This document shows positions 41,529 to 51,556 of a DNA stretch of 64,000 bases, one piece after another. The notes beneath the pieces were generated by a model. It saw only the letters and a list, made by a program, of their open reading frames with translations, was not told the origin of the DNA and made no database searches. A program made the position numbers and the translations under genes. Positions within the stretch are counted from its first letter, which is position 1; each line of letters opens with the position of its first letter. This stretch comes from Clostridium sp. 'deep sea'. GTDB lineage: Bacteria > Bacillota > UBA994 > PWPR01. The stretch covers positions 1,922,001-1,986,000 of the forward strand of contig NZ_CP063353.1 in the NCBI RefSeq assembly GCF_014931565.1. The letters run 5' to 3'.

Positions 41529-41924
41529 ATATGTTTTACGAAATAAAATGGAGTAAAAAATAAGGCTAACTAAAGACCATAATAACTAATAAAAACCACC
41601 TCAATGATGGTTTTTGTTTAGCCAGTCAAGCTTGAGAAACATGCAAAACGATAAACCACCCGCTATGCGGGTGCTGAAACGGAAGTTATACAAAAGTATA
41701 GAACTTACCCCTAATTGTGAAGGAAAAAATATAATATAAATAAACAGAGTAAACCTAAGGTAATATATCAGTAATCTATTTCCCTTATACACTTTTTAAA
41801 AACATGAATGGACTATTGATGAAGGTGCTGAGGCATGGAATTGACGGTCAGCAATAATACTTTCTTTTCATACAGTATATTTTTAAGGTAATGATTTTAC
41901 TCCATTTTATTTCGTAAAACATAT
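41529..41924. mobile_element. MITE-like element with perfect 30-bp inverted ends
   Basis: The first 30 bases (41529-41558, starting ATATGTTTTACG) are exactly the reverse complement of the last 30 (41895-41924). The inside, 336 bases, holds two smaller hairpins: AAAACCACCTCAATGATGGTTTT near 41595, and CACCCGCTATGCGGGTG near 41655, of the sort that sits before the transposase start in IS200-type elements. It also holds the 17-mer GATGAAGGTGCTGAGGC (41818-41834) shared with repeat copies A and B. No transposase frame and no clear target-site duplication are visible. It is probably a non-autonomous element or the remnant of one. Confidence 0.6.
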
Positions 41925-42093: not shown

Positions 42094-44463
42094 TTAGTTG
42101 TTTATAGTAAAAACCTTACGGGCAATCTCTACTCCCTCACGGGCATCTTTGGCATAAAAATCTGCTTTTATCATACTAGCATATTCACTATTAAGCACAG
42201 CGCCACCCACCATAACTTTACAGTAGGGTGCCTTTTCTTTTAGTAATTCTATTGTTTGTTTCATGCTTTTTACAGTAGTTGTCATTAAGGCACTTAAACC
42301 AACTAACTCTATCTTTTCATTTATCACAGTGTTTAGTATTGTATCAGGGGCTACATCTTTACCTAAATCTACTATTTTATAACCATAGTTTTCGAGTATA
42401 ACTTTAACTATGTTTTTACCGATATCATGAATATCTCCTTGAACAGTTGCCAAAACAATTTTATGTTGTTTTGTTGTGTTATCACTTTTTGGCAAATGTT
42501 TACGTAGCTCCGTAAATGCTTGTTTGGCAACCTCAGCTGATTGAATTAGTTGAGGTAAAAAAATCTCTGCTTTTTCATATAAAATGCCCACCTCATCTAA
42601 TGCTGGAATAAGAACTTCATTAATAATAGTCATAGCAGGTTTTGATTTTAAAGCCACTGTTGTTTTATTAACTATTTCATCTTTTAGACCTCTTTTAATA
42701 AGCTCAGCTAAGCTATAGTTATTGCTTTTATTAATTGTATTAACTTTAACACTAGCTAGTTTATTTATATATGTTTTTGCCTGTTTATCTTGATTATTTA
42801 ACACATTAAAGGCTGAAATAATGTTCATCATTTCTCTACTACCAGTATTTAAAATAGGGGCATCTAAGCCTGCCTGTAAAGCCATTGCTAAAAAGGTTTT
42901 ATTTAGTAAATCTCTATGAGGTAAACCGAAAGATACATTACTTACCCCTAAAACAGTTTTTACGCCTAACCTTTTTTTAACCATGGTTACCGCCTTAAGG
43001 GTTTCTAAAACCTCAGCTTGCTGGGCAGAGGCTGTTAATGTTAAACAATCAATTAGAATATTCTTCTTTGCTATTCCATAACTATGAGCAGTATCTATAA
43101 TTTTTTTAGCTATAAAAAACCGTTCTTCTGCCGTACTGGGTATTCCGGAGTCATCAAGGGTTAAACCCAATACACAGGCACCGTATTTTTTGGCTATTGG
43201 AAATATTTTATCCATGCTGCTCTGTTTACCACTAACCGAATTTATAAGGGGTTTACCATTATAAATTCGTACTGCTTGTTCAATTACCTTAGCACTTGTA
43301 CTATCTATTTGCAGTGGTATGCTCTGTATTGCCTGTATTTCAGTTATTACTTTTTTCATGTATTCAACTTGATTTATTTCCGGTAATCCCAGGTTAATAT
43401 CTAAAATATTTGCTCCCTCTTCTTGCTGGCTAATTGATTCTTTAATAACATAAGAGATATCCCCAGAACGCAAAGCCTGCTTAAGATACTTTTTACCTGT
43501 TGGATTAATCCTCTCACCAATTACAGTTACAGCATTCCCAATTGTGATAGTTTTAGCATAAGATGCTACTTTTGTTTCATTTTTTTTGGTTATGGGTAGT
43601 GCAGTAATATCTACTAAAGCTTTGTGACACTCTTTAAGATACTCTGGAGTTGTTCCACAACACCCGCCTATTAGGCTTGCTCCTGCTAAAACTAGTTGTT
43701 TTGCATACTGAGCAAATTGCTTTGCGGCAAGACTATATTCCGTTTTTCCATTATTTATGCAGGGTAAGCCAGCATTAGGCTGAACTAAAATTGGTATAGA
43801 ACTATACTGTCTTGCCTCTTTTACTAAGCTAAGCATTTGCTGAGGTCCAGTAGAGCAATTAAATCCTAAAATATCTACCCCTAAACCTTCTAATACTGTA
43901 ACCATTGTTTCTATATCTGTTCCTGAAAACGTTCTACTATTGCTAAAGGTCATGGTACAGATTATAGGCAAATCACTATGCTCTTTGGCGGCCAGTATTG
44001 CAGCTTTGGCTTCATATATATCACTTATGGTTTCAATTAAAATTAAATCGCAACCAGCATTTACGCCTACTATTACCTGCTCTTTAAATAACTCATAGGC
44101 CTTCTCAAAACTTAGCGTTCCTGATGGAGCAAGTAACGCTCCAAGTGGTCCGATATCTAACGCAACTAAGGCCTTTTTTTTACTATCTTTAACTGCCTTT
44201 TTAGCTAGCTTTACGGCTGCTGTTATAATTTGCTCACAGCTGTATTGGTAGTTTTTTAACTTTAAGCTATTTATACTAAACGTGTTAGCAGTAATAAAGT
44301 TCGCTCCATTATTTAAGTAAGCTAAATGTAAATCATAAATGGCTTGGGGGTTAGTTATATTAAGAAATGGTGGCAAACTAGTTAAAGCTAGGTTTTGCTG
44401 AACTAAGGCTGTGCCCATGGCTCCATCGAATAATAGTATTTTATCTTTAGGTAACTTTAGCAT
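42094..44463 (-). CDS. metH: Cobalamin-dependent methionine synthase lacking the reactivation domain
   Basis: The product has 789 residues, starting behind AAGGAG, two bases past the previous stop. The homocysteine-binding domain (about 1-290) has the three zinc cysteines in GFNCSTGP and GGCCGTTP. The pterin-binding barrel follows (about 300-570, VIGERINPTGKK). The cobalamin cap and binding domains come last, with DIHDIGK (677-683) and His679 for the lower cobalt ligand. The reactivation domain of the usual roughly 1200-residue enzyme is missing; the gene before it encodes it separately. The enzyme moves the methyl group from 5-methyltetrahydrofolate to homocysteine. It closes the S-box-controlled operon. 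Confidence 0.95.
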   Translation of the reverse strand: MLKLPKDKILLFDGAMGTALVQQNLALTSLPPFLNITNPQAIYDLHLAYLNNGANFITANTFSINSLKLKNYQYSCEQIITAAVKLAKKAVKDSKKKALVALDIGPLGALLAPSGTLSFEKAYELFKEQVIVGVNAGCDLILIETISDIYEAKAAILAAKEHSDLPIICTMTFSNSRTFSGTDIETMVTVLEGLGVDILGFNCSTGPQQMLSLVKEARQYSSIPILVQPNAGLPCINNGKTEYSLAAKQFAQYAKQLVLAGASLIGGCCGTTPEYLKECHKALVDITALPITKKNETKVASYAKTITIGNAVTVIGERINPTGKKYLKQALRSGDISYVIKESISQQEEGANILDINLGLPEINQVEYMKKVITEIQAIQSIPLQIDSTSAKVIEQAVRIYNGKPLINSVSGKQSSMDKIFPIAKKYGACVLGLTLDDSGIPSTAEERFFIAKKIIDTAHSYGIAKKNILIDCLTLTASAQQAEVLETLKAVTMVKKRLGVKTVLGVSNVSFGLPHRDLLNKTFLAMALQAGLDAPILNTGSREMMNIISAFNVLNNQDKQAKTYINKLASVKVNTINKSNNYSLAELIKRGLKDEIVNKTTVALKSKPAMTIINEVLIPALDEVGILYEKAEIFLPQLIQSAEVAKQAFTELRKHLPKSDNTTKQHKIVLATVQGDIHDIGKNIVKVILENYGYKIVDLGKDVAPDTILNTVINEKIELVGLSALMTTTVKSMKQTIELLKEKAPYCKVMVGGAVLNSEYASMIKADFYAKDAREGVEIARKVFTINN

Positions 44464-44464
44464 A

Positions 44465-45109
44465 CTAACACTCCTTACGATATTGGCAGTTAACTAAACT
44501 ACAATTTTTGCATTTTAAATTTTCATCATTTGAAGTAGTATTACTTACCCCAATAACTGCTGTAACAGATTTACGAGGGAAAAGCAGATTATAATTATTA
44601 ACAAATAATCCTATTTTAATATCTGCCTGTAAAAGATCTATTAAACTCTGTTGAATTGTTAGTGGTAAATCTCCATAACCAGGGCTAAATCTACTTGTTA
44701 TGAACTTATTTTTTTGGCACTGCTGTTGGGCTATTTCTTCGGTTATGTCATCACAAATTAGCTCTATATAGGCAGAGGCACAGGCATCTAAAACCGTTGC
44801 CTTAGTAAGGTTATGATACTGATAATAGGCTATTTTTTTGTTTAAACGTTCTCCTAAAGTTACAGCCATTACATAACACTCATCACAGTTTTTAAGGTGA
44901 TTATTTATAGAACTGCCACTTAGCTGCACTGTTTTATTTAGATAAACACAATTATTATGTTTGTGTAAGCAAAACTTGTCATAAATATGCCTAGGACTTG
45001 CTAATTCTTGGCACTCAAGCAAACACTCATCTATAATAAGGCTTAGTTGAGCACTAATTTTTTGTCCTTTGTAACCTAAGTAGTGAAGGCAATCACTTTT
45101 AAGAGACAT
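44465..45109 (-). CDS. Methionine synthase reactivation-domain protein
   Basis: The product has 214 residues; the start overlaps the metF end by 11 bases and lies behind AAGGAAG. It matches a free-standing MetH activation domain: ACASAYIELICDDITEEI and RFSPGYGDLPL, where the RxSPGYGD motif binds S-adenosylmethionine. The C-terminus carries a Cys cluster (CKNCSLVNCQYRKEC) that may hold a metal. It should remethylate the cobalamin of MetH after oxidation. Splitting MetH this way occurs in other anaerobic Firmicutes. Confidence 0.88.
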   Translation of the reverse strand: MSLKSDCLHYLGYKGQKISAQLSLIIDECLLECQELASPRHIYDKFCLHKHNNCVYLNKTVQLSGSSINNHLKNCDECYVMAVTLGERLNKKIAYYQYHNLTKATVLDACASAYIELICDDITEEIAQQQCQKNKFITSRFSPGYGDLPLTIQQSLIDLLQADIKIGLFVNNYNLLFPRKSVTAVIGVSNTTSNDENLKCKNCSLVNCQYRKEC

Positions 45110-46004
45110 GTTCTTCTTCCTTTGTATTTAGTACTTTAACAACTGAGCTAATATTATTTATTAGTCTTTTGGCTATATAGGGTCTATTCATAACATATAA
45201 GTGAACTCCATCTATGCCTGAAGATAATAAGTCAATGATTTGCTCGGAGGCGTAGGCTATTCCTGCATCAATTAGCGCCTCTTTATTATACTGATATTTT
45301 ACCATTATTTTTTTAAATTTTTGGGGTACATTTGCCCCACATAAACTAACAATTCGTTCTATTTGTTTAGTGTTCACTACTGGCATTATACCAGCAACTA
45401 CAGGTATATTTATACCTAATAACCTAACCTCATTAAGAAATGCGTAAAAATCTTGATTATTAAAAAAGAGTTGGCTAACTAAAAAATCTGCTCCACAATC
45501 TACTTTATTTTTAAGATTGATTAAATCTGTTATTTTACTTTTAGCCTCTATATGCCCTTCGGGGTGACAAGCAGCACCAATAGAGAATTGAAAATTATTT
45601 TTAATTTCAGTGATTAAATCACTTGCATAATTAAAGTAGCTACTATTATTTTGCAAATAATCAATAGGTTTATCTCCTCTTAAAGCCAATACATTATCTA
45701 TGCCTACTTGCTTCATAGTAGCTAGTTGCTGATAAACCTGTTGTTGAGTAGAGCCTATACAAGTTAAGTGTGCTAAAGGCTCTATATTAATTTCGTTTTT
45801 TATAAATGATGCCAGTTTAACAGTTAGGTCTTTGCCCTCACTTATACCTGTTGCTCCATAGGTTACACTCATATAATCGGGTTGAAGTACTGCAAGGTTT
45901 TCAATAGTATTATAAATTGTATTTATTTTAGATTGTTTGTTCGGTGGAAATATTTCAAAAGATACAACCGGCTTTTTTTGTGCAAACATATTTTTTATAA
46001 ACAT
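45099..46004 (-). CDS. metF: 5,10-methylenetetrahydrofolate reductase
   Basis: The product has 301 residues, starting behind AAGGAATG. The flavin-binding TIM barrel is marked by VSFEIFPPN (with the catalytic Glu), SVTYGATG, HLTCIGST, LALRGD and AACHPEGH, all typical of MetF. It reduces methylenetetrahydrofolate to methyltetrahydrofolate, the methyl donor for MetH. The gene overlaps the activation-domain gene by 11 bases and follows the UPF0280 gene by 4. Confidence 0.93.
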   Translation of the reverse strand: MFIKNMFAQKKPVVSFEIFPPNKQSKINTIYNTIENLAVLQPDYMSVTYGATGISEGKDLTVKLASFIKNEINIEPLAHLTCIGSTQQQVYQQLATMKQVGIDNVLALRGDKPIDYLQNNSSYFNYASDLITEIKNNFQFSIGAACHPEGHIEAKSKITDLINLKNKVDCGADFLVSQLFFNNQDFYAFLNEVRLLGINIPVVAGIMPVVNTKQIERIVSLCGANVPQKFKKIMVKYQYNKEALIDAGIAYASEQIIDLLSSGIDGVHLYVMNRPYIAKRLINNISSVVKVLNTKEEEHVS

Positions 46005-46008
46005 AATA

Positions 46009-46722
46009 TCATTCCTTAAACTTTATATTACCCCATGCTCCTAGGTGTTTATTTATAGTTATTAATATACCAGTTATTCCAGTAACCGACTTTGCATAAC
46101 TTAAAGCTAAATTTATATCCTTATGGGTTTTTACCATATTACCAATTGAGGTTGCTGTAGCATCCGCCAAAAGTGTGTCGTTGGCTCTTACTACCACAGC
46201 ATCGGCGTTACCATAACTTAGTGAATGGCCCAATGTGCCAGCAGATGTACAAATACCTTGTCCTCCGGTTACTGGCTCTATTTCTAAAACAGGATCTACT
46301 TGTTGGTTTTTAGAGTGCACAGCCATATAACGTGTTTTACTACTGTGCATAAAAATGTCGCCACCATTCTCAATTATTATTTCTGAAGAATACTTTAGTA
46401 AATCTTTACCCAAATACTGTGCTATGGCTCCTGCAACTGCTGCCATAGGCCCTACGTTTACTTTTTGAGTGACCTCTATCATATGTTGAACTATAACAGG
46501 AGCTGAAAAGTCTTGTTCCAAGGGTTTTAAGCTTTTTAAAAAACTTGGTCTTTTAGCTATATAATTTACTAGTTGTTGCCTATACTTTGTTACTGAAAAT
46601 AAAGCCTGATGCATTAATTCTTGTTCTGCAAATATCTTAAGATCGGTTTCTGCGGTACAAACTGAAAATGGCAGTAAATCGATTGCTTTCATTTTTTTAC
46701 GATAATAACGTGGCTCATACAT
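46009..46722 (-). CDS. UPF0280 (COG2122) protein of the homocysteine route
   Basis: The product has 237 residues. The signature GPMAAVAGAIAQYLGKDLL, then IIENGGDIFMHS and GICTSAGTLGHSLSYGNADAVVV, marks UPF0280, an ApbE-like fold family. Work on methanogens and sulfate reducers links COG2122 to homocysteine synthesis from aspartate semialdehyde together with the COG1900 protein, and it has been discussed in persulfide handling. It lies 8 bases from the COG1900 gene. The ribosome-binding site is weak, so coupling to the upstream gene is likely. Confidence 0.9.
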   Translation of the reverse strand: MYEPRYYRKKMKAIDLLPFSVCTAETDLKIFAEQELMHQALFSVTKYRQQLVNYIAKRPSFLKSLKPLEQDFSAPVIVQHMIEVTQKVNVGPMAAVAGAIAQYLGKDLLKYSSEIIIENGGDIFMHSSKTRYMAVHSKNQQVDPVLEIEPVTGGQGICTSAGTLGHSLSYGNADAVVVRANDTLLADATATSIGNMVKTHKDINLALSYAKSVTGITGILITINKHLGAWGNIKFKE

Positions 46723-46730
46723 TTTTTATA

Positions 46731-47888
46731 TTAACCTAACTTATAGTTAACCATAGGCTTAACTTTATTGTTTTTAGAAAACATTTTTATTGGCTGCTGT
46801 AAGAAAAACTGTTTATTTAGTATCCATTGTTTTAATAACTCTGATATCTCCTGTGACTTTTTAATATCTGTTAGTGAATGGGTTTTTATTTGCTTATTAT
46901 TTATCTCTACAAAACCCGATTTAAGTTGTTGATAACTAACTTTTTTTATTACAGGGTGACCACCTTTGCATACACTATAGTCAACAATTGAGGTATAAAT
47001 ATCGCTATCTTTTAAGGATAAATAGCTCATAATCTCTTCATTTAACACGGGTATAGGTATACCAATACCTACAAATAAAGATACTCCATAGTTTTTAAAA
47101 GATGCTGGTCGTATATATCGTGTGTTCATATCTTTTAAATTACCAATTGTAGCTAAAGTGGCAGCAGGACTTTTAGGAATACCGTTATCCTGACGCTGTG
47201 TATCTGAGTTAAATTGAGTGCCATGCCAAGCCACATAACCCTCTGCTCCAGCTAAAAATATACGCGTACCGACTCCTATTGTTTTATAATAAGGGTCATT
47301 CAATAGTGGACTTAATTGCCCCGAGGTACTGTAATTTATATTGTTCATATTGGCACCAAGTTTACCCATATAGGTATATAGATCTTTATTGCTAGTGTTG
47401 ATTGCTGCATTATAGTTCTGATAAGCATTTCTGGGGTTAAATAAATAAGCTTCGTTTAAATCATTTAATTTTATTGTGCTATTAAGCTTTTTAGTGGGGT
47501 AACAATCTGTTCCTGGTGAAGAGGCTTTTAAGTGAACCTCTTTGCCATCAATTAAATCACAAATAACATGTGCTCCCCCATAAGCAGAATTACTTTCACT
47601 AAGTTGAGTAGCTCCTATATAGCTATCTACAGCAGCTATGCCAGCATATGCCTCTACATTATTTAAAAATGTTTTTGTCATACGGATAGGAGGATCACTA
47701 TGCCCAAAGTTAAGAAACGCCCCACTCGAGCACATTGGGCCAAAGGTTGCAGTAGTTACCACATCAACAAGCTCAGTTGCTTTTTTAACGCCAACATTAT
47801 TAACTATATCTAGGACTTCATCTGCGGTTACTATAACTGCCTCTCCTGCAGCAATTTTAGAATTTATTTCAGCATAACTTTTTACCAT
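46731..47888 (-). CDS. Homocysteine biosynthesis protein (DUF39, COG1900)
   Basis: The product has 385 residues, starting behind AAAGGAG. It matches the DUF39/HcyBio family: KSYAEINSKIAAGEAVIVTA at the start, the conserved Cys in FGPMCSSGAFLNFGHSDPPIRM, and GAHVICDLIDGKEVHLKA. In methanogens and Desulfovibrio-type bacteria this family is needed to make homocysteine from aspartate semialdehyde and a sulfur donor, bypassing cystathionine. The usual third partner, a NIL-ferredoxin protein, is absent from this window; no CBS domain is attached here. It is the first gene of the S-box operon. Confidence 0.9.
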   Translation of the reverse strand: MVKSYAEINSKIAAGEAVIVTADEVLDIVNNVGVKKATELVDVVTTATFGPMCSSGAFLNFGHSDPPIRMTKTFLNNVEAYAGIAAVDSYIGATQLSESNSAYGGAHVICDLIDGKEVHLKASSPGTDCYPTKKLNSTIKLNDLNEAYLFNPRNAYQNYNAAINTSNKDLYTYMGKLGANMNNINYSTSGQLSPLLNDPYYKTIGVGTRIFLAGAEGYVAWHGTQFNSDTQRQDNGIPKSPAATLATIGNLKDMNTRYIRPASFKNYGVSLFVGIGIPIPVLNEEIMSYLSLKDSDIYTSIVDYSVCKGGHPVIKKVSYQQLKSGFVEINNKQIKTHSLTDIKKSQEISELLKQWILNKQFFLQQPIKMFSKNNKVKPMVNYKLG

Positions 47889-48454
47889 ATTAATTCTCCT
47901 TTTTCAATATTTTACTTATATAAATTAAAAAAAATAAATAAATCAAATAACTGTAGAATTATATAATTTTTTTTATAAGCATAATTTTAATGGTTTGAAC
48001 GAAATTTTTTAATTAAGCTAAGTGTTTTTAATTTTTTACCACATAGCATTAAATCACTCAGAGTATATCAAGCAAAAATAATTAAGGTGATTACTTAAGG
48101 TACATGTCTTCGTGTCATTGGTAACTAACCCACAGTAGTATTAATTTTAATTACCAGAGCTCATTAAGTTACTGTTGTTTTAATTTTAGGGAAATTGCAA
48201 AACAACAAATATTTTAAGAATTATTAGCTACTAAAATGCTAGCAATTATTTGTAGTAATAACTTTTTCATTAGCTAAGAAAATTAATGTTGAGAAGGTTT
48301 TCTCTTAACTTTAATAACTTAATGAGCTTTATGATAATAATTACTTAATATAATAAAATCCTAAGCAGTTGTTATGAGAATCGTCACTCTCATAAATAAC
48401 TATTTTTGTTTACCACTAAATAACAGTTGCAACCATTATCACTTTTAGTTCATT
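47889..48454 (-). other. Long untranslated stretch between the S-box terminator and the first gene
   Basis: After the terminator hairpin, about 560 bases pass before the COG1900 start. No frame with a ribosome-binding site, no second riboswitch and no strong promoter are visible. A small hairpin (ATGAGAG...TTCTCAT near 48374-48393) is the only structure noted. A leader this long after an S-box is unusual. Confidence 0.4.
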
Positions 48455-48497
48455 AAAAACAAAAAAACCACTTTCGTTTGCTGAAACGAAAGTGGTT
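48455..48497 (-). terminator. Intrinsic terminator of the S-box leader
   Basis: AACCACTTTCGTTT (48466-48479 on the plus strand) and its complement (48484-48497) form a 14-pair stem with a four-base loop. The minus strand then shows seven T, one G and five more T. It lies 15 bases past the aptamer, so SAM binding should decide between this hairpin and an antiterminator. Confidence 0.9.
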
Positions 48498-48511
48498 ATA
48501 ACCTGAAATAA

Positions 48512-48610
48512 CTTATCTTTCATTTCTAACGAAATGCAGGATTTAGCACCACACTCTAAATGTAGGTTGCCGGGTTTCACAGGGCCAGTCCCTCCACCAC
48601 TCTTGATAAG
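48512..48610 (-). promoter_or_regulatory. SAM-I riboswitch (S-box) aptamer
   Basis: Read on the minus strand, the element shows all S-box landmarks in order: CTTATCAAGAG opening P1, GGTGGAGGGACTGGCCC, GTGAAACCCGGCAACC, GGTGCTAAATCCTGCA, and GATAAG closing P1. The downstream terminator completes a transcription-attenuating switch. When SAM is plentiful the methionine operon should be shut off. Confidence 0.97.
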
Positions 48611-48636
48611 GAAGATATTAATATTAAGTTTTCTGC

Positions 48637-48665
48637 ATTATAGCACTATAAAAGAACTTACGCAA
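48637..48665 (-). promoter_or_regulatory. Promoter of the S-box operon
   Basis: On the minus strand TTGCGT (48660-48665) and TATAAT (48637-48642) are separated by 17 bases. The start would lie about 20 bases before the aptamer. The boxes sit 30 bases past the stop of the last Tad-locus gene, with no terminator between them. Confidence 0.6.
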
Positions 48666-48694
48666 GGGCTTTTCATATTTTTAATAAATTATGC

Positions 48695-49642
48695 TTATTT
48701 ATGCGTAAGATTATTACCCTCTAAACCTAAATATTTAAGTTTCTGCAAATTCCTTAGGCAATCTATATCACAAATATTGTTATTAATTAAGTTTAACCAT
48801 TCAAGATTACTTAAGTTTTTTATAGGGCTAATATTTTTAATACTGTTATAAGAAATATCAAGCTCTTTTAATTTAAGACAGTTATCTATATTAAGTGCTT
48901 TTACTTTGTTATTACTTAGGTTTAAGACCTCTAAATCTAGTAACTGATTTAAGGGTGTTGTGTTTGTTATTTGATTATTGGCTAGGTTTAATTGTTTTAA
49001 TTTTTTTAGTTTGCTAACAGATGTTATATCTATAATTTTATTATTGTAAAAACTAAGTTTGTTAAGCTTTGTTAGTTTTTTTATTTCATTAATCTCTACT
49101 AAATTATTATTATTAAGATATAGTTGCTCAATATTTTTAGACTTAATTATTGGCTTTAAGCAAGTTATATTGCAGTTTATTAAAGCTAACTTCTTTAACA
49201 TTGGCTTATTTATTTCACAGTTTATTGTAGAATCTGTTAGCTCTAAAAACTCTAAATACAAAAAACTATCTAAAAATTGCTGATAAATATCTAGCTCATT
49301 AACACGTAAGTGTTTTAGATAGATAAAGTTTTGAATATCTGTTAACTGTAGGTCTTTTATGGCAAATTGATTATTGTTAAGCGTTAAGCTATTTTTAGCT
49401 AAACTTAGTTTATTTATGGCTAATAAATCGCTTTGTAATAACAGTGTTTTTTCCTTACCGACTGTTTCTCTCACAACTTGCTCTAACAAAGCATTATTAA
49501 ACTTAACTACTTTGTTTTTTTCTATTGTAAATGGGATGTTGTTTATTTGGTATTTTGGTATAGCTAAGCTATTTACTTCAATGCAAGCTAAACCAGGTAT
49601 TAATAATATTAGCGTGATTAACATATTTCTTAATATTTTCAT
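48695..49642 (-). CDS. Exported leucine-rich-repeat protein
   Basis: The product has 315 residues, with an N-terminal export signal (MKILRNMLITLILLIPGLA, followed by Cys). The C-terminal two-thirds is a row of leucine-rich repeats of the internalin type: LKKLKQLNLANNQITNTTPL, LLDLEVLNLSNNKVKALN, and LSNLEWLNLINNNICDID. Such repeats usually bind other proteins outside the cell. It is the last gene of the Tad operon, 15 bases past the kinase-like gene. A cell-surface partner for the pilus is a guess. Confidence 0.85.
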   Translation of the reverse strand: MKILRNMLITLILLIPGLACIEVNSLAIPKYQINNIPFTIEKNKVVKFNNALLEQVVRETVGKEKTLLLQSDLLAINKLSLAKNSLTLNNNQFAIKDLQLTDIQNFIYLKHLRVNELDIYQQFLDSFLYLEFLELTDSTINCEINKPMLKKLALINCNITCLKPIIKSKNIEQLYLNNNNLVEINEIKKLTKLNKLSFYNNKIIDITSVSKLKKLKQLNLANNQITNTTPLNQLLDLEVLNLSNNKVKALNIDNCLKLKELDISYNSIKNISPIKNLSNLEWLNLINNNICDIDCLRNLQKLKYLGLEGNNLTHK

Positions 49643-49657
49643 TATAGGTTTAACCTC

Positions 49658-51556
49658 TTAGTCTGCTTTTAGATTTAAATTCAGTTCAGTAACTTTAATT
49701 TCAAGCAAAGCTATCTCTGAGTCAGTACTATAGTTTTTAAGTTTCTCTAACAGTTTATTTATTGTTTGCAAGTCAGTTAACTTATTTTTACTCTGCTTAA
49801 GTTCAGCTATTTTAATAAAACACTCACTCTTTGTAACTTGATAGCTATTATAGTATTTTTTCATTTGACCTAATGTTTTATTGGCTTTATTTAAGTCATT
49901 TAATTGTAGGTATAAAGCAATAAGGTTTTTGTAAATATGAATATCATTGATATTGCAAAAGAGTAACTGATGGTAACATTCAGCGGACTCTAACAAGTAT
50001 TCATCGCTTTGGCTTATTAGGGCTTTTCGATAATAACTATTTGCTAATTTTTCAATAATAAGCTGACTACTATAAATAGTGGCGTGTTGTTTAGCATTAT
50101 TCAGAGCCTGTATCTCTAAATCAATACTTAATTCATTACATTTATATATTTCTGCTAATAATACATTACACTTACATAATTTTTTACTGTCATGTAATAG
50201 ACTTGTAGCTTTAGTTAAATAGTCTTTTGCTATTTTATAGTTATTATTTAGGAACTCAACTTCACCCATTAACATGTAGCTAATAGCATTATCTTTAACT
50301 AACTTTAGCGCCTTATTTAAAGCCTCTTTAGCCTCACTATTTTTATTTATTTCGCAGGCAAGACCCGCAAATTTATGATAAAGATCTATATCTCTTTTGT
50401 TGTATTTAAGTGCTTGTTTGTAATAATTATACGCACTTTCTTTTTCTGTAAGCAGCTTATAACTATCTGCAATGAACTCTAAATATCTACTATAATTTAT
50501 ATCTTTATTAAGTTTTTGCTCACCTTTATTTAAACCAATACATTGCTGATATTTTTTTTGTTTAAAATATATCTCTGCTAAGTTTAAATATGCTATAGTT
50601 TTGCTTTTATTTAAGTCAATTGCTCTATAAAAGCTTTGCTCAGCTTGTTGTAGTTTGTTAGCTTGTAAATAATTTTCACCTTTTATAATATACTGTTGAT
50701 AATTATTGTTGTTTTTTTGCTTATTAATATGTAAACAAGCTAATAAAGTAAGAAAAACAGCTATACTAACCATTGTTATAATACTTTTTTTATTGACATG
50801 CTTTAGTTTAATTTTTTTAGCCTTACTTAGCTTGTTGAATTGCTCTTTTATTTCAAACATATTGTTATATCTTTTTGTGGGATTTAACTGTAGACACTTT
50901 TTTAATATACATGAAAACTGCTTAGGCAGTTCATTTAAACTTTTATTGTTTTGATATACTTTTTTAGTTAGTAAATAGTAGATTGTTGCCCCAAAGCTAT
51001 AGATATCTGTTTTATTATTTATAGTCTCACAATTACTTTGTTCAGGTGCTGAAAAGCCCTTAGTTTTACCAAGGGCTTTTGTTTTATTATTAATAGCAGA
51101 TATACCAAGGGCTTTGAGCTTTAGTTCTCCGTCTTTATTTATCATAATATTAGCTGGTTTTATATCACTATGAATAATATTGTTTTGATGAATATAGCCT
51201 AAAACATTTATCAAGTCTTTACTTATACGTAATACCTCTAGTTCTGTAAAGGCACCTTTATTTTCAATTATTTGTTGCAAATTTAATCCGTCGATATAAT
51301 CAATAACTATAAATGTTTCTTCACCATACTTAACTATGTCATATAATCTTGGTAACATTTTGTGCTGTAAATGTTTAAGTATATCTACCTCTCTACGATA
51401 GTTAGTATTATGTAGTGTTAAGCTATCAATTCTTTTTAAAGCAACAGTGATATTTAAGCTATTATGATAAGCTTTGTAAATAATGCTTGTGCCACCAGTA
51501 TTAATCATACCTTTAATTAAATATTTGTTTAAAAGCACAGTTCCTGTTTTAATCAT
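49658..51556 (-). CDS. Serine/threonine kinase-like protein with TPRs, probable pseudokinase
   Basis: The product has 632 residues. The N-terminal kinase fold (about 8-255) keeps Lys41 (VALKRI), Glu56, HSD (129-131) with Lys133 and Asn136, and APEQ (170-173). In place of the DFG motif it reads ALG (149-151), so the metal-binding Asp is gone. A membrane helix follows (about 263-282), then many TPR-like helices outside the membrane (about 290-625). The architecture resembles PASTA-less bacterial sensors. The missing Asp argues for reduced or absent catalysis; binding ATP as a switch is possible. It sits between the FHA and LRR genes of the Tad operon. Confidence 0.85.
   Translation of the reverse strand: MIKTGTVLLNKYLIKGMINTGGTSIIYKAYHNSLNITVALKRIDSLTLHNTNYRREVDILKHLQHKMLPRLYDIVKYGEETFIVIDYIDGLNLQQIIENKGAFTELEVLRISKDLINVLGYIHQNNIIHSDIKPANIMINKDGELKLKALGISAINNKTKALGKTKGFSAPEQSNCETINNKTDIYSFGATIYYLLTKKVYQNNKSLNELPKQFSCILKKCLQLNPTKRYNNMFEIKEQFNKLSKAKKIKLKHVNKKSIITMVSIAVFLTLLACLHINKQKNNNNYQQYIIKGENYLQANKLQQAEQSFYRAIDLNKSKTIAYLNLAEIYFKQKKYQQCIGLNKGEQKLNKDINYSRYLEFIADSYKLLTEKESAYNYYKQALKYNKRDIDLYHKFAGLACEINKNSEAKEALNKALKLVKDNAISYMLMGEVEFLNNNYKIAKDYLTKATSLLHDSKKLCKCNVLLAEIYKCNELSIDLEIQALNNAKQHATIYSSQLIIEKLANSYYRKALISQSDEYLLESAECYHQLLFCNINDIHIYKNLIALYLQLNDLNKANKTLGQMKKYYNSYQVTKSECFIKIAELKQSKNKLTDLQTINKLLEKLKNYSTDSEIALLEIKVTELNLNLKAD

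Follow-up and report, generated by a model that had tools for sequence, protein, structure and literature searches.

A SAM riboswitch ahead of a DUF39–COG2122 methionine operon without a NIL-ferredoxin gene in Clostridium sp. 'deep sea'

Can DUF39 (COG1900) and COG2122 supply homocysteine in a genome that lacks the NIL-ferredoxin found beside them in relatives, and does SAM control the operon that carries them? The locus described here raises both questions. The L-aspartate semialdehyde sulfurtransferase of Methanosarcina acetivorans consists of MA1821 (DUF39-CBS) and MA1822 (NIL-ferredoxin), accompanied by the COG2122 protein MA1715. Cys54 is essential, and the NIL and CBS domains act as regulators (PMC12068725). 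DUF39, NIL/ferredoxin and COG2122 are all required in Desulfovibrio vulgaris, which depends on NIL/ferredoxin to grow when no methionine is supplied; what DUF39 and NIL/ferredoxin do at the molecular level was, in 2018, described as unknown (PMC5764234). We analysed a window of 64,000 nt, positions 1922001-1986000 of the single 3.83-Mb contig of the genome (code G000, completeness 97.6%). Genome-wide absences reported below rest on family searches of this genome. The wider sample comprised 398 genomes of the phylum, of which 133 carry DUF39.

The operon and its S-box leader

All elements of the operon lie on the minus strand, in the order S-box, terminator, DUF39, COG2122, metF, MetH-activation protein and MetH, and the intergenic gaps are short or overlapping across the whole operon:

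48637-48665 (-): promoter-like site TTGCGT-17-TATAAT, read directly from the sequence, just upstream of the aptamer
48510-48612 (-): SAM-I (S-box) riboswitch aptamer (RF00162)
48517-48526 (-): candidate antiterminator 5′ arm GAAAUGAAAG, within the aptamer 3′ end
48459-48497 (-): intrinsic terminator, 14-bp stem and T7
47889-48454 (-): non-coding leader insert, 566 nt, 23% GC, between terminator and DUF39
46731-47888 (-): DUF39 / COG1900a homocysteine-forming protein by family, 385 aa (PF01837 (HcyBio), 9.4e-150)
46009-46722 (-): COG2122 / UPF0280, 237 aa (NF003323, 9.3e-80; PDB 2o34, 3.7e-36)
45099-46004 (-): metF, methylenetetrahydrofolate reductase (PF02219, 2.9e-78; TIGR00676, 305 bits, over cut-off)
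44465-45109 (-): free-standing MetH-activation protein (PF02965 at cut-off; PDB 1j6r, 1.4e-12)
42094-44463 (-): MetH, 789 aa (PF02574, PF00809, PF02607, PF02310)
41591-41673 (-): two terminator-like hairpins 3′ of metH, probable operon end

The initial annotation had named a full S-box aptamer and a terminator ahead of DUF39/COG1900, COG2122, metF, a free-standing activator and a MetH without activation domain. Profile and PDB matches bear out this gene set, and RF00162 matches the leader at full length (48612-48510, positions 1-108 of 108) at 87.3 bits (gathering score 44.4, E 2.5e-19). It is the sole S-box that the RF00162 search found in the genome. The terminator has a perfect 14-bp stem (48497-48466) followed by T7; a count of terminator-like sites on both strands of 47600-48900 yielded this one against 0.4 expected. 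The promoter-like site has a perfect -10 and a poor -35 element and was not listed by the consensus scan. In the computed fold the candidate antiterminator arm (48526-48517) pairs over 10 bp with 48492-48483, which is the 5′ arm of the terminator. For the full leader the terminator form has -44.1 kcal/mol, and forcing the antiterminator gives -36.0 kcal/mol; as long as the terminator 3′ arm has yet to be transcribed, the two states are near equal (-29.8 versus -29.1 kcal/mol with the antiterminator). The anatomy of the leader is that of ordinary S-box attenuation, expression platform included, and hairpins equivalent to the terminator, of unrelated sequence, stand 3′ of the S-box in most relatives measured. 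Aptamer, terminator, plausible antiterminator and gene order support the attenuation of the whole operon that had been proposed. The aptamer is predicted from its sequence to bind SAM and to cause SAM-dependent termination, and SAM-switched regulation of the operon is likely.

One detail that the initial annotation did not contain is the 566-nt stretch of 23% GC between terminator and DUF39. The spacing from S-box to DUF39 in relatives is 59-105 nt in most cases measured and 345 nt in one. The insert folds strongly (z -3.67). A search of Rfam with E values up to 1 detected neither a second riboswitch nor a known RNA there, and the insert has no copy elsewhere in the window or in the loci compared and no open frame longer than 35 codons. 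A promoter scan of the insert gave matches at background level only. The insert could house an independent promoter, which counts against exclusive control by the S-box.

The DUF39 protein matches PF01837 with 498.8 bits (cut-off 26.2). Cys53 is present in 88/88 alignment rows and Cys129 in all rows but one; their equivalence to Cys54 and Cys131 of MA1821 rests on published numbering (PMC12068725). We found neither a CBS domain nor a ferredoxin insert in this protein. An identity as COG1900d / methanogenesis marker 16 (ComF) was rejected, as TIGR03287 reaches 139 bits against a cut-off of 364 and a Fer4 domain is missing. The AlphaFold2 model is confident (pLDDT 91.6); a search against PDB folds produced no meaningful match (best E 0.012, TM 0.08), and the sequence matched no PDB chain, so that a DUF39 structure would be new. 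COG2122 carries a conserved Cys158, and its NF003323 match falls just below the model cut-off. The protein pair resembles the M. acetivorans system in its COG1900a-type DUF39, the two conserved cysteines and the presence of COG2122. It differs from that system by the lack of CBS and of the NIL-ferredoxin subunit, and by putative SAM control at the RNA level via the S-box.

MetH contains the homocysteine-, pterin- and B12-binding domains and no activation domain (PF02965), which resides in the separate activation protein. This is a split MetH of the Thermotoga type (activation protein 1j6r). Unlike there, the activator of the window ends in a C-terminal CxxCx5C tail (within 44465-44530), and the methyl-branch genes share one probably SAM-switched operon with the homocysteine genes. 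A CxxCx4-5C tail, or nearly so, was seen in all distinct activator homologues (L033, L097, L098, L099, L105, L150/L151 and the window). Judged from sequence, the tail of this MetH reactivase may bind a metal or an Fe-S cluster. The region directly upstream of the operon (48695-51556) encodes a protein with leucine-rich repeats and a TPR-containing Ser/Thr kinase. In a congener (G001) the same S-box also has a Ser/Thr kinase upstream, and ahead of that kinase an ORF whose C-terminus is FHA-like.

The arrangement is less rare than the initial annotation implied. Among the relatives searched, 29 DUF39 genomes could be scored, and 24 of them have an S-box upstream of the DUF39 operon; three further genomes were undecidable and stand outside the 29. 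Position was judged by coordinate comparison, 'upstream' meaning on the same strand, either directly or at a distance of up to about 2.8 kb with other sequence, in several cases MetH, between. Coupling of anaerobic homocysteine genes to a SAM switch is therefore a standing arrangement in the phylum rather than a peculiarity of the window. In the open-access literature we found no paper on S-box control of COG1900 or on DUF39 without NIL-ferredoxin.

The missing NIL-ferredoxin and its loss

The operon had been called complete, with the NIL-ferredoxin partner noted as outside the window. It is outside the genome as well, and in terms of its known parts the pathway cannot be called complete: a family search found no NIL domain in the whole single-contig genome, and the matches of a NIL-ferredoxin profile were ferredoxin halves of other proteins. 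Of the parts of L-ASST, the NIL-ferredoxin partner subunit is thus absent from both operon and genome. In relatives the NIL-ferredoxin gene sits between DUF39 and COG2122, a slot that is only 8 nt long here. Across the phylum sample, a NIL-ferredoxin or short-ferredoxin match was found in 128/133 DUF39 genomes. The five without either (G000, G002, G004, G008 and G010) coincide with the full set of DUF39 carriers in the window's class; a Fisher test (p 3e-9) was set aside because these genomes are related.

A gene missed by the assembly, or too diverged for detection, would explain the gap trivially, and completeness is 97.6% rather than 100%. We regard this as very improbable, since the genome is a single contig with the usual slot empty, and the slot is likewise empty in G002, G004 and G008; in G010 a contig end truncates COG2122, which nonetheless comes immediately after DUF39. 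Against strong divergence, the best NIL-ferredoxin profile hits in the class span the ferredoxin half only, and the two that were inspected are 2-oxoacid:ferredoxin oxidoreductase subunits. These hits were also considered as a replacement ferredoxin elsewhere in the class and rejected on the same grounds; no substitute ferredoxin was found near DUF39. A replacement Fe-S site within DUF39 or COG2122 was rejected too, as the ferredoxin-less group is not set apart by any cysteine column or fixed difference.

Other variants occur in the phylum. In ten DUF39 genomes a gene next to DUF39 encodes a short ferredoxin that lacks NIL, and in one (G286, L158:3667-5169) DUF39 continues into a C-terminal 2[4Fe-4S] ferredoxin as a 501-aa fusion. 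That the ferredoxin half is kept or fused where NIL is lost points to electron delivery as the role of the retained half. Read as a series, NIL was lost first and ferredoxin second; the tree does not show both steps in every lineage.

The closest DUF39 to have a complete operon around it is that of Clostridiales bacterium AS09scLD_402, where the operon is split over two contigs (L034 and L033). It shares with the window S-box, DUF39, COG2122, metF, activator and MetH in the same order, and differs by a 132-aa NIL-ferredoxin between DUF39 and COG2122; its S-box lies 59 nt upstream of DUF39. This sister operon indicates that the lineage of the window lost NIL-ferredoxin. In the tree the window DUF39 groups with AS09scLD_402 (97/84); the two fall within a clade (99/92) that also holds short-ferredoxin families, and the other ferredoxin-less lineage (G004, G008, G010) branches elsewhere. 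A single origin of the ferredoxin-less group is rejected at a p-AU of 0.027 when long branches are left out, the value with all rows being 0.075, and the starred branches force two ferredoxin losses in both trees. Two separate losses rather than one are favoured by these sequences, though not proven; gene transfer of DUF39 is a possible origin of the pattern.

Loss of the subunit might mark the decay of the pathway. As D. vulgaris needs NIL/ferredoxin, the DUF39 route may yield no homocysteine in a genome that lacks this protein; methionine or homocysteine would then be taken up, and DUF39 would serve a side reaction or be recent dead weight. This is a real prospect, and the one that competes most strongly with a working minimal synthase, because the congener G001 has kept S-box, metF, activator and MetH in this order (L105:5232-9502) and lacks DUF39 and COG2122 there, with no DUF39 found in its genome. 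Also, DUF39 is missing from G006, a genome of the G008/G010 genus with 100% completeness. Yet DUF39 of the ferredoxin-less genomes retains both catalytic-type cysteines and the residues that are invariant in the alignment, and it is intact in four genomes of two families (the fifth is cut by a contig end). In the pair G008/G010 pN is 0.12 versus a saturated pS of 0.77. Conserved residues and low pN/pS indicate that ferredoxin-less DUF39 is still under purifying selection where this is measurable, and in the window it still stands behind the S-box, directly coupled to COG2122. We consider decay a minority prospect.

Proposed homocysteine formation without the dedicated subunit

The initial annotation had proposed that cystathionine and O-acetylhomoserine are bypassed and had suggested a genome scan for the classical genes. 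We found no match to MetA (PF04204) or MetX (TIGR01392) in the genome; both searches hit many control genomes. The bypass of acyl-homoserine is thereby supported, and the pair of DUF39 and COG2122 with no acyl-homoserine route found is also the situation in D. vulgaris (PMC5764234); the NIL-ferredoxin required there is missing here. The part of the claim that does not stand unqualified concerns the one true, full-length PF01053 (Cys/Met-metabolism PLP enzyme) gene of the genome (G000:C1:2508443-2509564). A classical or O-phosphohomoserine route through this sole enzyme, the latter dispensing with MetA and MetX, could make homocysteine, and DUF39 and COG2122 would then do other sulfur work. We think this rather unlikely: the best family of the enzyme is archaeal Ala/Glu racemase (463 bits, below the model cut-off of 629), followed by PRK05968 and methionine gamma-lyase, and its 4-kb locus has no S-box and no methionine gene among its few ORFs.

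PF01053 genes of another kind occur in relatives. G001 has a second, methionine-gamma-lyase-like PF01053 gene (L144), and such a gene is also present in DUF39-less relatives of class family f2 (L140, L142, L143, L145-L148). In several f2 loci an ORF that by eye resembles aspartate semialdehyde dehydrogenase lies just upstream of it.

We favour, with moderate confidence and as the explanation that best fits these observations, a transcription-attenuated methionine operon in which DUF39 and COG2122 still make homocysteine, with reduction by a general ferredoxin. At high SAM the aptamer and its P1 helix would form, leaving the terminator 5′ arm free, and RNA polymerase would stop before DUF39. 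At low SAM the aptamer 3′ end would pair with the terminator arm and allow read-through into DUF39, COG2122, metF, activator and MetH. By analogy with methanogens and Desulfovibrio, DUF39 and COG2122 would form homocysteine from aspartate semialdehyde and sulfide: a persulfide on Cys53 of DUF39, perhaps loaded with the help of COG2122, would give its sulfur to aspartate semialdehyde, reduction would yield homocysteine, and MetF and MetH would then methylate it. With the dedicated NIL-ferredoxin subunit lost, a general ferredoxin, or some donor equivalent to it, is the probable electron source. A stricter version, in which DUF39 and COG2122 alone are a homocysteine synthase without any ferredoxin, reduction being due, for example, to thiols or the persulfide itself and NIL-ferredoxin being an accessory outside the chemistry, appears improbable to us. 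The NIL and CBS domains that serve methionine/SAM sensing in Methanosarcina are absent from the operon, and of SAM-feedback elements only the riboswitch was seen there.

The role of NIL-ferredoxin in the anaerobic homocysteine pathway is the question on which these variants bear. They form a natural deletion series, with NIL lost and ferredoxin kept, ferredoxin fused to DUF39, or both lost and DUF39 and COG2122 kept, and they also set allosteric control by NIL and CBS apart from RNA control by the S-box. The series makes the minimal catalytic set of the pathway directly testable.
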